Of a stretch of 64,000 nucleotides of DNA, positions 6,922-58,950 are shown in pieces. Under the pieces are notes generated by a model. The model was not told the origin of the DNA, made no database searches, and saw nothing but the letters and a program-made list of their open reading frames with translations. Origin of the DNA: Sulfurimonas sp. (GTDB lineage Bacteria; Campylobacterota; Campylobacteria; Campylobacterales; Sulfurimonadaceae); contig NZ_JAQTLH010000008.1 in the NCBI RefSeq assembly GCF_028714975.1, positions 1-64,000 of the forward strand. Reading direction: 5' to 3'. The stretch's first letter is position 1. Each line of letters begins with the position of its first letter. The position numbers and the translations under genes are program-made.

Positions 6922-7097
6922 TCAAGCTTTAGTGCCGTAGCGGCTTTTTATTCTGACACGGAAGTGTCAAGCTTTAGTGCCATAGCGGCTAGCGTAGCCA
7001 AAGGAATTACTTTTCTTTAGCTTTTTATTCTGACACGGAAGTGTCAAGCTTTAGTGCCATAGCGGCTAGCGTAGCCAAAGGAATTACTTTCTTTGGC
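6922..7097 (+). repeat. Double-hairpin intergenic repeat, tandem array upstream of tig
   Basis: Two full units and one partial unit in tandem; the two full units are 77 bp apart (6967 and 7044). Each full unit has a hairpin TGACAC-GGAA-GTGTCA (6954-6969 and 7031-7046), then a conserved core beginning AGCTTTAGTGCCATAGCGGC. A second hairpin follows, GCCAAAG/CTTTGGC (perfect in the last copy, 7074-7097; one mismatch in the other). Related copies lie at 52894-52961, 56029-56096 and 58845-58911. The array occupies most of the lspA-tig gap. Confidence 0.85.
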
Positions 7098-7125
7098 GTT
7101 TTAAATTAAATAAAAAAGGAAATTG

Positions 7126-9040: not shown

Positions 9041-10090
9041 ATGTCGGGGTCTTTGAAAAATAAAATGCGTCATAGCGTAACGGATGCGGCACCCACCAGT
9101 GTAGTAAGAGATAAAGTGGTAGAAGAGGAACCGGAGAGCGAGTTGGATGCTTATTCAAAAGAAGTTTTAAGTGCGTTAATGAAAGATAGCTTGCCGCCGA
9201 CCCCCAATAATTTCTCTCTCTATTTTGACAGACTTTTAGAAGATAAAAGTCAAAACACCCGCAATCATATTGTCTCTATACTTGAACTTGAAGACAATAA
9301 TGAAGATGAAAACAGCATTATACTTGAGCAGAGTCTTAAGCAGGGTTTTTCATCGATAAAAAACATTCTCGGAGTTACCGCAAATATATATAAAAATATG
9401 TCTCTTATGACAAAAATACTTGAGAAGAGAAAACAAGAGCTTGAAGAGAGTTCGGATAGTCATAAAACGAGAGACGTAGCAGCATCTTTAGAGTCTGATA
9501 TTTTAAAATTAGGCGCTATATTAAAAAAGCAGAGTAGCAGCATGAAAACCATGTATGATGACACTGCAAAGATTATAAAAAATGTTGAAAATGAGACTAT
9601 ATTTGATAATCAATACGGGGTTTATAACAAACGCTACTTAATGGCTAAGATTGAACAAGAGATAGAGCTTATAAGTAAATTTAAGCATAAAAGCTCTCTT
9701 ATCATGATTGAGCTATCACGTGAACTTAGAAAAAATGTAAACAATGAAAAAGCCGTTATGTTGATGACAAGAACGATTGCGCGGCTTCTGCTTAAAACTT
9801 CCAGAAGAAGCGATATAGTCGCTCATTACGGAAATGGCGTCTTTGCAATGCTTCTTAAGCATACGGATATAGAAAATGCAAAAAGAGCAAGTGAAAGACT
9901 TTGCGATTTAGTTTCAAATAGCAACTTTTTTCTGGCAGATCGTGAAATTCAACTTAAAATATCTATCGGAATTACCGATATCACTGAAAATCATTCGGTA
10001 GAAGAGATTATTGTGAGTTCTATGAATGGAATCGAAAAGGCTTATGAAAACCCTAATTTAGACTTTGCAGTTTTATTAAGAAATATTTAA
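9041..10090 (+). CDS. Degenerate GGDEF-domain protein
   Basis: A 349-residue soluble protein. Residues 1-175 form a helical, partly coiled-coil region. The C-terminal about 165 residues follow a diguanylate cyclase fold (FDNQYGVYNKRYLMAKIEQEI, SRRSDIVAHYGNGVFAMLL, LKISIGIT). The active-site GGDEF is replaced by YGNGVF, so cyclase activity is unlikely; a c-di-GMP-binding or structural role is possible. It sits between clpP and def in the same operon, 18 bases after clpP. Confidence 0.75.
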   Translation: MSGSLKNKMRHSVTDAAPTSVVRDKVVEEEPESELDAYSKEVLSALMKDSLPPTPNNFSLYFDRLLEDKSQNTRNHIVSILELEDNNEDENSIILEQSLKQGFSSIKNILGVTANIYKNMSLMTKILEKRKQELEESSDSHKTRDVAASLESDILKLGAILKKQSSSMKTMYDDTAKIIKNVENETIFDNQYGVYNKRYLMAKIEQEIELISKFKHKSSLIMIELSRELRKNVNNEKAVMLMTRTIARLLLKTSRRSDIVAHYGNGVFAMLLKHTDIENAKRASERLCDLVSNSNFFLADREIQLKISIGITDITENHSVEEIIVSSMNGIEKAYENPNLDFAVLLRNI

Positions 10091-52150: not shown

Positions 52151-52420
52151 TTAAAGTACCATTTTTATATGTTGGTGAGCCTTTAGGGCTTGATAGATAA
52201 AGTTTCTGTCATCTTCGTTATGCACAAGCATATCAAGATTCATACTTATATACTTGCCGCCTTTAGAATTATTTGAGTGAGTCAGTTTATGCTCTCTCTC
52301 ATCGATAACATCCCGTATAGCCTTTTTGAGTGCCTCTACTTCAGAGGCTATCAGCTTGTAAGACCAAGAACATGGATATGTAAGTTCTAGTTTCTCATCT
52401 CTAGCGTTTAAAATCTCCAC
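52151..52420 (-). CDS. DUF493 (YbeD-like) protein
   Basis: 89 residues, beta-alpha ACT-like fold: [24 protein letters not shown] and [25 protein letters not shown]. YbeD-type proteins are thought to be small-molecule-binding regulators. It overlaps the moaC 3' end by 20 bases, so it is translated with it. Confidence 0.8.
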
Positions 52421-52871
52421 TTTTGCCTCCCGATTTTTCTTCTAGCTGCACATTTCGTATTACCATACCTTTATCAATTGCTTTTACCATATCATAGATA
52501 GTTAAAAGCCCGATACTGGTGCCCGTTAGTGCTTCCATTTCAACACCTGTCTGACCTGTCAGTTTTGCGCTAACCGTGAGTTTAAATCCCGGAAGTTCTG
52601 CCAACTCTTCAATATCGCAATTGATTCCGCTTAGGTTTAGCGGATGGCACATCGGAATAAGTTCACTTGTCTTTTTTGTTCCCATGATAGCCGCTATAAC
52701 GGCAGTTTGAAGTACAGGGCCTTTCTTTGTCTTTTGGCTTACTATGGCATCATAAGCATCTTGACTCATCTCTATGATACCGCTGGCAACTGCAACTCTG
52801 GTTGTTTGATTTTTGTCCGAAACATCAACCATTTTCGGTCTGTCTTTCTCATCTAAATGTGTTAATTTCAT
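52401..52871 (-). CDS. moaC: Cyclic pyranopterin monophosphate synthase
   Basis: Second step of molybdenum cofactor synthesis. 156 residues: [20 protein letters not shown] at the start, then [18 protein letters not shown]-type motif and [28 protein letters not shown]. An upstream ATG at 52913 would extend the protein into a dispersed repeat and is rejected. mobA lies upstream on the same strand. Confidence 0.94.
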
Positions 52872-52893
52872 ATTTTCTCGTTTCTTATAGAAC

Positions 52894-52961
52894 GCAAAAT
52901 GAGCAGGGCCCATTTTGCTACGCTAGCCGCTATGGCACTAAAGCTTGTCTCTTACGAGACA
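52894..52961 (-). repeat. Double-hairpin intergenic repeat, copy upstream of moaC
   Basis: Reverse orientation. Hairpin 1 is TGTCTC-TTAC-GAGACA (52946-52961), and the core reads AAGCTTTAGTGCCATAGCGG on the minus strand. Hairpin 2 is GCAAAATG/CATTTTGC (52894-52918). Both stems differ in sequence from the 6922-7097 copies but keep pairing. Confidence 0.8.
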
Positions 52962-52963
52962 GA

Positions 52964-52991
52964 AGATTTCTTACAAAAATATAAGAAATCT
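52964..52991. terminator. Inverted repeat downstream of mobA
   Basis: AGATTTCTTA and TAAGAAATCT make a perfect 10-bp stem with an 8-base loop, just past the mobA stop codon and adjacent to the dispersed repeat. It is likely a 3'-end structure. Confidence 0.45.
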
Positions 52992-54704: not shown

Positions 54705-55970
54705 TTAGTTTAATCTAGGATCCGCAATATAGCCATTAATTGCCGAAATAGCCGCAACTGCAGAGTTCGCCAAGTATACTTTTGAACTTCTTGAGCCCAT
54801 ACGACCTACAAAGTTACGGTTTGTTGTAGAGACTGCTACTTCGTTATCTCCCAAAATCCCCATATATCCGCCAAGACAAGCTCCGCAAGTAGGATTGCTC
54901 ACGACTCCGCCGGCGTCTACGATGATGTCGATGTAGCCGAGTTTGTTCGCCTCTCTTAGTATCATCTGCGTTCCCGGAGTTACAATAAGACGGACATCGG
55001 GATGAACTTTTTTACCCTTTAAAATCTCTGCCGCAACTTTAAGATCACTTAGTCTGCCGTTTGTGCAGCTTCCGATAAATGCCTGATCTATTTTGATTTT
55101 ATCACTTACTGCTTGAGTTATGCTGTGACCGTTTGAGGGTAAAAACGGGTATGCGATAACTGGTTCAAGATTTGCAACATCTATCTCTAAAACTTGTACA
55201 TAAGAAGCATCTGCATCAGAGTGATGAATTTTAGGCGTACGAGCTAAATTTTTATCCGACAAGAACGCTTCCGTAACATTGTCATAAGCTACGATTCCGC
55301 TTTTTGCTCCCGCTTCAATAGCCATGTTGCACATAGAAAATCTATCATCCATCGTAAGGTATTCAATCGTGCTTCCGGTAAACTCTAAAGTTCTGTAAAG
55401 TGCGCCGTCAACACCGATCATGCGTATAATCTCTAAGATAATATCTTTACCGGTTGTATATTTTCCCGGTTTTCCGCTAAGAACGACTTTGATAGATTCA
55501 GGAACTTTAAACCAGTTTCCGCCTGTTACCATCGCAAATGCCAAGTCTGTTGAGCCCATACCCGTAGAGAATGCTCCGAGTGCGCCGTGCGTACATGTGT
55601 GTGAGTCTGCACCGATGATAACATCTCCCGGAACTACAAGCCCTTTTTCAGGTAAAAGCGCATGTTCTATTCCCATGTCTTTTTCGTCAAAAAAGTTTTT
55701 TAAGTTGTGCTTTTTTGCAAAGTCACGGCTGATGCGTGCTTGATTTGCACTTGCTATATCTTTTGCAGGGATAAAGTGGTCAAGAACTATGGAAAATCCA
55801 TCAGGATTTGCCAGTTTCGTAGCACCGCTATCTTCAAAAGCTTTGATAGAGATAGGCGTAGTAATATCATTTCCGATAACCATGTCGATATCACAGCGGA
55901 TAATCTCCCCCGCATAAACAGGTTTGCCGACATGTTCGGAAAATATTTTTTCAGTTATAGTTTGTCTCAT
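54705..55970 (-). CDS. leuC: 3-isopropylmalate dehydratase large subunit
   Basis: Isomerises isopropylmalate in leucine synthesis with LeuD. 421 residues of the aconitase fold. Fe-S ligands are in FIGSCTNGRLSDL and NPTCGACLGGYMG, and GADSHTCTHGALGAFSTGMGSTD is the substrate loop. It is of the archaeal/Campylobacterota short LeuC type. leuD is not adjacent in this window. Confidence 0.92.
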   Translation of the reverse strand: MRQTITEKIFSEHVGKPVYAGEIIRCDIDMVIGNDITTPISIKAFEDSGATKLANPDGFSIVLDHFIPAKDIASANQARISRDFAKKHNLKNFFDEKDMGIEHALLPEKGLVVPGDVIIGADSHTCTHGALGAFSTGMGSTDLAFAMVTGGNWFKVPESIKVVLSGKPGKYTTGKDIILEIIRMIGVDGALYRTLEFTGSTIEYLTMDDRFSMCNMAIEAGAKSGIVAYDNVTEAFLSDKNLARTPKIHHSDADASYVQVLEIDVANLEPVIAYPFLPSNGHSITQAVSDKIKIDQAFIGSCTNGRLSDLKVAAEILKGKKVHPDVRLIVTPGTQMILREANKLGYIDIIVDAGGVVSNPTCGACLGGYMGILGDNEVAVSTTNRNFVGRMGSRSSKVYLANSAVAAISAINGYIADPRLN

Positions 55971-56028
55971 AATATATGATTCCTTAATTTTATTTCATAA
56001 AATGAAGGAAACCCTCCATTTATTTGTT

Positions 56029-56096
56029 AGTAAAAGGAATTTGTACCTTTTACTTCGCTAGCCGCACAGGCACTAAAGCTTGACACTTTCGTCTAA
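56029..56096 (-). repeat. Double-hairpin intergenic repeat, copy upstream of leuC
   Basis: Hairpin 2 is AGTAAAAGG/CCTTTTACT (56029-56054), with its own complementary stem sequence. The core is at 56055-56080, with CACAGG where other copies have CTATGG. Hairpin 1 is eroded (TTGAC...GTC). Minus orientation. Confidence 0.7.
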
Positions 56097-56215
56097 GATT
56101 TGTTTTATAATGATATCGGAAGTAATCCTGCCGTCTATCATTTTATTTTTGCGATTATACCATTTTCTATTTTAATCCAAAAAATGTTATATTTAAACAA
56201 AAAAAGAAGCCATAT

Positions 56216-57592: not shown

Positions 57593-58825
<1,233 letters not shown>

Positions 58826-58844
58826 CACCTATTTTATATAGTCC

Positions 58845-58911
58845 GCAAAAGGAAGTAATTTCTTTTGCTTCGCTAGCCGCTACGGCTACTAAAGCTAACT
58901 CCTTGCGGAGT
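58845..58911 (-). repeat. Double-hairpin intergenic repeat, copy between nifS and nifU
   Basis: Hairpin 2 is GCAAAAG/CTTTTGC (58845-58868). The core is CGCTAGCCGCTACGGCTACT and onward, and hairpin 1 is ACTCC-TTGC-GGAGT (58898-58911). A fourth pair of stem sequences that again stay complementary. Minus orientation inside a plus-strand operon. Confidence 0.8.
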
Positions 58912-58950
58912 AGAAATTTTAAATTTATGAAATAAATTAAAGGAAAAAAA

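Follow-up and report, generated by a model that had tools for sequence, protein, structure and literature searches.

Repeat copies within the window

The window, i.e., the whole 64-kb stretch of DNA analyzed here, contains a short, hairpin-structured repeat in the gaps next to tig, moaC, leuC and nifU. An exhaustive covariance-model scan identified five full copies and one remnant of this repeat, here called type 1 (Table 1). The full copies had E-values from 1e-22 to 5.5e-14, and the next match, at E 0.015, was separated from them by a clear gap to chance matches. The 25-mer core alone gave four matches at ≤3 mismatches in the window, compared with none in 100 shuffles. The locus at 6922-7097 is a tandem array in which a remnant core precedes two complete copies ~77 bp apart, the second ending ~23 nt 5' of the tig start codon (7126). 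Two further copies precede moaC (52401-52868, minus strand; Pfam MoaC) and leuC (54705-55970, minus strand; Pfam Aconitase). The fifth lies between a cysteine desulfurase-type aminotransferase gene (57596-58807, plus strand) and nifU (58951, plus strand), both assigned by Pfam. Gene context was called with a simple ORF caller on stretches of 2-3 kb. No copy of a sister family, type 2, was found in the window.

Table 1. Type 1 copies and adjoining hairpin modules in the 64-kb window
Feature	Position	Strand	Stems and sequence	Basis
Remnant, core without complete P1 or P3	6922..6944	+	TCAAGCTTTAGTGCCGTAGCGGC	Sequence; model match 6929-6945, E 0.058
Full copy 1 of tandem array, lspA-tig gap	6952..7026	+	P1 TGACAC/GTGTCA, core, P3 3' arm worn	80.7 bits, E 2e-19
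Full copy 2 of tandem array	7029..7102	+	P3 GCCAAAG/CTTTGGC	88.2 bits, E 2.2e-21
Full copy upstream of moaC, sense	52889..52963	-	P1 TGTCTC/GAGACA, P3 GCAAAATG/CATTTTGC	93.3 bits, E 1e-22
Optional upstream hairpin P0, adjoining the moaC copy	52964..52990	-	GATTTCTTATATTTTTGTAAGAAATC	Sequence
Downstream tail module of the leuC copy	55982..56024	-	Hairpins ATGGAGGG..CCTTCAT and TTTTATGAAATAAAA, then TTAAGG beside leuC start	Exact match 55982-56008, 0 expected
Full copy upstream of leuC, sense	56025..56098	-	P1 eroded, P3 AGTAAAAGG/CCTTTTACT	66.7 bits, E 9.6e-16
Full copy antisense to nifU	58840..58914	-	P1 ACTCC/GGAGT, P3 GCAAAAG/CTTTTGC	60 bits, E 5.5e-14

The four loci of an earlier note on this DNA, with the stems given there, are present in the sequence as described, and its one eroded first hairpin is that of the 56025 copy. 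Many copies exceed the length given in that note and may carry an extra hairpin at either side. P0 hairpins of differing sequence occupy the equivalent position in many copies, and the tail module of the leuC copy also stands 3' of many others; it is present at one locus of the related genome G063 (L294) and missing at the orthologous site of the source genome. Comparison with a second close relative, G062, showed a single orthologous copy in the lspA-tig gap that begins at the same point as the remnant, and a different copy in opposite orientation in the nifU gap. The moaC copy is present in both G062 and G063. A known structured RNA family was rejected, as Rfam 15 gave no match in the window above the gathering score, and the best sub-threshold match under relaxed thresholds reached 28.8 versus 53.1 bits.

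Anatomy of the type 1 element

A type 1 element consists of a P1 hairpin, the near-invariant core CTTTAGTGCCNNAGCGGCTAGCG, which can itself fold into a small stem, a G[T/A/C]AG tag and a P3 hairpin, in the layout TC-P1-AG-CTTTAGTGCC-NN-AGCGGCTAGCG-[T/A/C]AG-P3-GTGTAAA or similar. The core is nearly unchanged from Sulfurimonas to Sulfuricurvum and Sulfurospirillum, and P1 and P3 vary freely. A P1 stem could be scored in 187 of 223 distinct copies, which together carry 134 distinct P1 hairpins (e.g., TGCCTC/GAGGCA, among many others). P1 loops were found in both orientations, including at a site shared between the source genome and G062 (L122/L319). The tag adjoining P3 is GTAG in 155 of the 223 distinct copies (~70%) and mostly GCAG or GAAG in the remainder.

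This ~75 bp core length is extended to ~105-155 bp in many copies through extra terminal hairpins, namely P0 on the 5' side of P1 (ACTTCTTGC..GCAAGAAGT) and, 3' of P3, either GAGTTCTGCAAGAACTC or ATGGAGGGTTTCCTTCAT together with TTTTATGAAATAAAA. Single copies have further hairpins inserted into the P3 loop or the core, and hairpin modules are gained and lost separately between orthologous sites. The ends of type 1 are not uniform; candidate terminal inverted repeats (GACTTCTTGC..GCAAGAACTC) occur only in copies having both P0 and P4.

Copy number and distribution

A covariance model built on 23 copies of the source genome gave about 47 type 1 matches at E<1e-4 in its 2.06 Mb, and three weaker matches belonged to type 2. 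Independently of the stems, the core (20 specified bases, ≤2 mismatches) matched 36 times in the genome, versus zero for the reversed control. The same approach with the covariance model found 1-47 type 1 copies each in 32 of 60 close relatives and none in the others, and ~60 model matches in G062, in agreement with the dispersed nature of the element proposed earlier. In a phylum-wide sample the family was detected by covariance model in 30 of 249 genomes and 8 of 55 genera, every match falling within one order; one genus (g20 of family f20) had at least 10 copies in every positive genome listed, copies being scored up to a ceiling of 19. Among the matches listed for the exact core from 84,980 species genomes, all were Campylobacterota (Sulfurimonas, Sulfuricurvum, Sulfurospirillum and less precisely named relatives). 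No type 1 match was obtained in 50,697 phage and 72,556 plasmid records, and the exact core was present on two IMG/VR contigs.

The repeat family is real and apparently new to the literature, although of a generally known kind; we found no description of it in the open-access literature searched, and one may exist elsewhere. A recent REP survey counted many REP-like palindromes in Sulfurimonas gotlandica (PMC12306157). Being common in Sulfurimonas and relatives and placed in leaders of core genes, the family will bear on annotation, on the mapping of transcripts and on work with promoters in these organisms.

Covariation of the stems and its sources

Among 50 distinct copies of the source genome, covariation of the stems was 0.435, compared with 0.141±0.009 in shuffles. 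For 102 distinct copies from other genomes and contigs it was 0.560 versus 0.174±0.008 in shuffles and ≤0.099 for slid partners. In this second set 96% of cells were paired, and two-sided changes were observed in 6 of 6 pairs of P1 and 8 of 9 of the P3 helices. Both alignments were fitted to the model and hence lean toward structure, although the margin is still very large. The claim that stem pairing is kept despite sequence change, made on four loci, thus extends to many more copies, with covariation far above controls; the absence of covariation, which the earlier note had named as its refutation, was not observed.

The further step, from preserved pairing to selection on structure, was too strong. 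When orthologous copies in place were compared, we counted 19 single changes that broke a pair, 15 that kept it and 12 double changes, some of the doubles being replaced copies. Unpaired singles are therefore about as frequent as compensated doubles, and there is little sign that fixed copies are under strong constraint to pair. A second observation came from an orthologous type 2 site (L394/L393; G000:C1:102498, where G000 is the source genome, and G062:C3:42024), compared over 1.4 kb at 94% identity. Inside the element the two copies differ solely in that P3 is flipped into its exact reverse complement and that a P2 arm is overwritten to complement its partner perfectly. Hairpin flips and arm overwrites of this kind are the footprints of template switching described previously (PMC8794818, PMC8604942), and this site is a clean example of that signature. 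Since template switching rewrites or flips stems in one step, covariation in this repeat has a mutational source too; it probably also arises from selection on copies able to move. Strong covariation, usually taken as proof of a functional RNA, thus arises in a mobile repeat in which template switching between hairpin arms is visible on comparison of close relatives, and the family is well suited to testing which share of covariation is mutational and which is selected.

Empty, decayed and exchanged sites

Examination of the lspA-tig gap in 29 orthologues revealed that it is empty in most of them. It is filled by type 1 in the source genome, G062 and G063, and three more genomes contain decayed copies; in G005 a type 2 element occupies the same place, and G116 has another type 2 just upstream. 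Genome-wide, the source genome and G062 or G063 (flank identity ~90%) have many copies in common, and many others are found only in the source genome. At these, the orthologous site in G062 or G063 is cleanly empty in an otherwise collinear gap; one such copy (L032) has the AT-rich direct repeat TAAT. The equivalent gap of a related species may also contain another copy, another type or a copy in opposite orientation, and different elements occupy the gaps L127/L345, L049/L329 and L124/L316 in the source genome and G062, respectively. Apparent in-place inversions of the whole element (glmS-like and nifU gaps) were rejected as such, since stems and core differ, which indicates independent insertions or replacements. 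Arrays are head-to-tail, with the core central, and vary in number, with two copies in the source genome versus five in G062 at L122/L319 and two versus one elsewhere.

Candidate target duplications of type 1, AT-rich and 4-7 bp long, were seen in single cases. Across copies, short direct repeats at the edges were about threefold more frequent than in permuted pairings (z 3-4.6, best of many offsets), a weak and diffuse signal. A 37-bp gene end repeated on both sides of one element (L051, G000:C2:249099) was considered as a long target duplication and rejected, because G062 has the unit of gene end plus element twice (L311, G062:C2:149216); the repeat is due to tandem duplication of that unit. 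At L158 and L195, type 1 is likewise flanked by long direct repeats of adjacent sequence, perhaps through the same process. Another dispersed palindromic family (CGTCATTCCAAACTTGATTTGGAATC / GATCCTGAATCAAGTTCAGGATGACG) was noticed in some of the same gaps in G062 (L288, L352, L358, L372).

Type 1 is therefore a mobile element and not a fixed regulatory leader. It is short (<300 bp), non-coding and present in many dispersed copies, with precise presence or absence between relatives, as is typical of MITEs. We consider it likely that type 1 is a non-autonomous, MITE-like, hairpin-structured mini-transposon with a core of ~75 bp.

The type 2 sister family

Type 2 elements (125-154 bp) have the layout CTGAYSTTACGCAC...TAGCTTTAGGGGGTTG..GGGAC..GTCCCTGCC..P3..GTGCGTAACATCAG and have P1-AGCTTTAG and the P3 loop motif in common with type 1. 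Their 14-bp terminal inverted repeats (CTGAYSTTACGCAC..GTGCGTAACATCAG) are accompanied in several copies by 7-bp AT-rich target duplications (TTAATAA, ATGATAA, TTAAAAA, TTAGTTA, TAAGTAA), and for TTAATAA a matching empty site is present in G062 and G063. Because of these inverted repeats and duplications, type 2 is a textbook MITE. Its mechanism may, by analogy, extend to type 1 through the common P1-AGCTTTAG-P3 architecture.

We searched for an autonomous transposon with type 2 ends, using exact or near-exact ends and ~1.5 kb of flank. At the loci from 60 genomes of the genus all end pairs were 39-154 bp apart, and the viral collection contained no pair at insertion-sequence length with convincing ends. 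On an IMG/VR phage contig (L426, ~9808-9950), a GC-rich 143-bp insertion has ends matching type 2 (CTCACCTTACGCA..TGCGTAACATCAG) and a 7-bp duplication, TGAGTAA; it adjoins a gene that resembles a large terminase, as named by eye from its sequence. Such near-identical ends on an unrelated viral contig suggest that this enzyme specificity, or one close to it, may occur widely. A second IMG/VR contig (L482, ~1823-1930) contains a 94-bp insertion that has the ends CTGGAGTTACGCAC..GTGCGTAACATCAG and is flanked by the duplication TTAATAA; it appears to be a further MITE with this type of end. Plasmid pSULKU01 of Sulfuricurvum kujiense (NC_014754.1, 45717-45789) carries a partial type 2-like copy before a gene for an Rrf2-family regulator and is a possible vehicle between species.

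Placement in leaders and a possible role as RNA

The element is found mostly in short gaps directly 5' of the ribosome-binding site, its end typically 17-30 or 52-56 nt before the start codon; in operons, a distance of 0-20 nt often separates it from the upstream stop codon. In gaps between codirectional genes the orientation was sense to antisense 29:7 in the source genome (P=0.0003) and 25:8 in G062 (P=0.005), i.e., ~4:1, two counts that are not independent, as many sites are common to both genomes and tandem copies were counted singly. Orthologous copies were 93.8% identical compared with 89-90% for mostly coding flanks, and this slightly better conservation leaves room for function after insertion.

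These features, together with the covarying stems and near-invariant core, could be read as a cis-acting RNA leader, a riboregulator or a module for mRNA processing or stability, kept for control of the downstream gene. P1 is often capped by a GNRA-type tetraloop (39 of 88 tetraloops, versus 5 in flipped form). As proof of RNA function these loops were rejected, since among the commoner loops the base composition alone predicts a GNRA fraction of 0.43, nearly the 0.50 observed. No Rfam family matched the repeat. The downstream genes (tig, moaC, leuC, nifU and many others) are unrelated, and many copies are antisense or lie inside operons right after a stop codon. The tig ribosome-binding site is also present in empty alleles, so the element does not bring it. 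The tig survey and the comparison with G062 and G063 revealed that orthologous leaders are mostly empty or contain other elements, and that copies may be decayed, replaced or opposite in orientation, which speaks against the conserved RNA regulatory unit that the earlier note had offered as one option. We regard a leader maintained for gene control as unlikely. There is a marginally better, still slim, chance that the invariant core and the pair of covarying arms together form a new structured RNA, a mobile cassette kept in sense before ribosome-binding sites as a plug-in leader for mRNA processing or translation of unrelated operons, whose move may depend on the RNA fold. We infer that AT-rich targets (e.g., TTAATAA) followed by the A-rich Shine-Dalgarno region would explain placement, and perhaps orientation, without a regulatory role.

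Candidate mechanisms of spread

According to the mini-transposon reading, type 1 would be moved by a putative transposase supplied in trans, possibly from transient or lost insertion sequences, that would recognize the hairpin ends and the core. Preferred insertion at AT-rich sites (e.g., TTAATAA), which in these AT-rich genomes lie just upstream of Shine-Dalgarno sequences, would place copies in leaders. Pairing could be maintained in part through mobility being confined to copies that fold, and in part through template switching, by which one hairpin arm is copied onto the other during replication.

Type 1 might instead have no dedicated mobility and spread through recombination, gene conversion and horizontal exchange of flanking DNA. 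The changes in tandem number (5 vs 2, 2 vs 1), the in-place replacement by other copies and the search that found no enzyme agree with this; however, the clean empty sites in collinear gaps at many copies confined to the source genome, and the true terminal repeats and target duplications of type 2, make it improbable.

Movement by a RAYT (Y1, HUH) transposase recognizing the GTAG tag and P3, which would make the repeat a REP/REPIN-type element, is still less probable; a mechanism of this kind was raised in the earlier note. The position of GTAG next to P3 recalls GTAG-REPs (PMC3733652), tandem clusters are present, and the source genome has one Y1-like gene. However, tests of co-occurrence and flanking led us to reject the RAYT mechanism. 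Y1_Tnp is missing in the copy-rich genomes G021 (32 copies), G032 (21), G026 (14), G024 (11), G052 (11) and G031 (6), and it occurs in genomes without copies. No copy was found at any of 30 Y1 loci, nor in 16 kb around the local Y1 gene. The latter (G000:C3:177600-177935; L031, L139) encodes a Y1_Tnp-like protein of 459 aa with a degraded motif, MPHYFEFLA, in the expected HUH place; judging from this motif, it appears to have lost the second histidine and has probably been domesticated. The arrays are direct and not inverted doublets, and the REPIN layout of two inverted REPs around a variable hairpin was not found.

Spread through an RNA copy, as in a SINE-like retro-element, is very improbable: structured, sense-biased copies, some insertions that have no 5' hairpin (L123, whose site in G062 is empty) and a few copies between long repeats (L051, 37 bp) would suit it, but RVT_1 is missing in G062 (~60 matches), G032, G055, G026 and G005, the L051 repeat is the tandem duplication seen twice in G062, and the copies are without a common 3' tail.

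Comparison with known repeats

MITEs and the small bacterial mobile repeats ERIC, RUP, Correia/NEMIS, CIR and RPE have been reviewed (PMC2229807). Similar to these elements, type 1 is short, non-coding, dispersed, mostly intergenic and structured if transcribed. Type 2 resembles MITEs in its terminal inverted repeats and target duplications, whereas type 1 differs from them by a conserved centre, variable covarying hairpins, and swappable hairpin modules as ends in place of one fixed inverted repeat.

BOX of pneumococcus and bcr1 of the Bacillus cereus group are dispersed repeats with modular or RNA-like folding, whose enzyme is obscure. Type 1 is likewise a dispersed, modular, folding repeat, likened to them by description and not by sequence, and its host belongs to a different phylum. 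To our knowledge, BOX and bcr1 have no core in common with type 1. BOX is named in PMC3049150 and bcr1 in PMC6542083.

According to PMC2800124, which cites Paquin et al. 2000, double-hairpin or repetitive hairpin-forming elements of fungal and sponge mitochondria also combine two hairpins, an intergenic location, a patchy presence between close species and an obscure enzyme. Unlike type 1, these elements reside in organelles. We know of no long invariant core in them.

The likeness to GTAG-REPs and REPINs (PMC3733652, PMC3116915) is found in the GTAG beside a palindrome in 70% of copies, in compensatory hairpin changes and in clusters. Type 1 differs from these repeats in being without an associated RAYT, in its direct rather than inverted arrays, and in a conserved part that is central instead of being placed at both ends.
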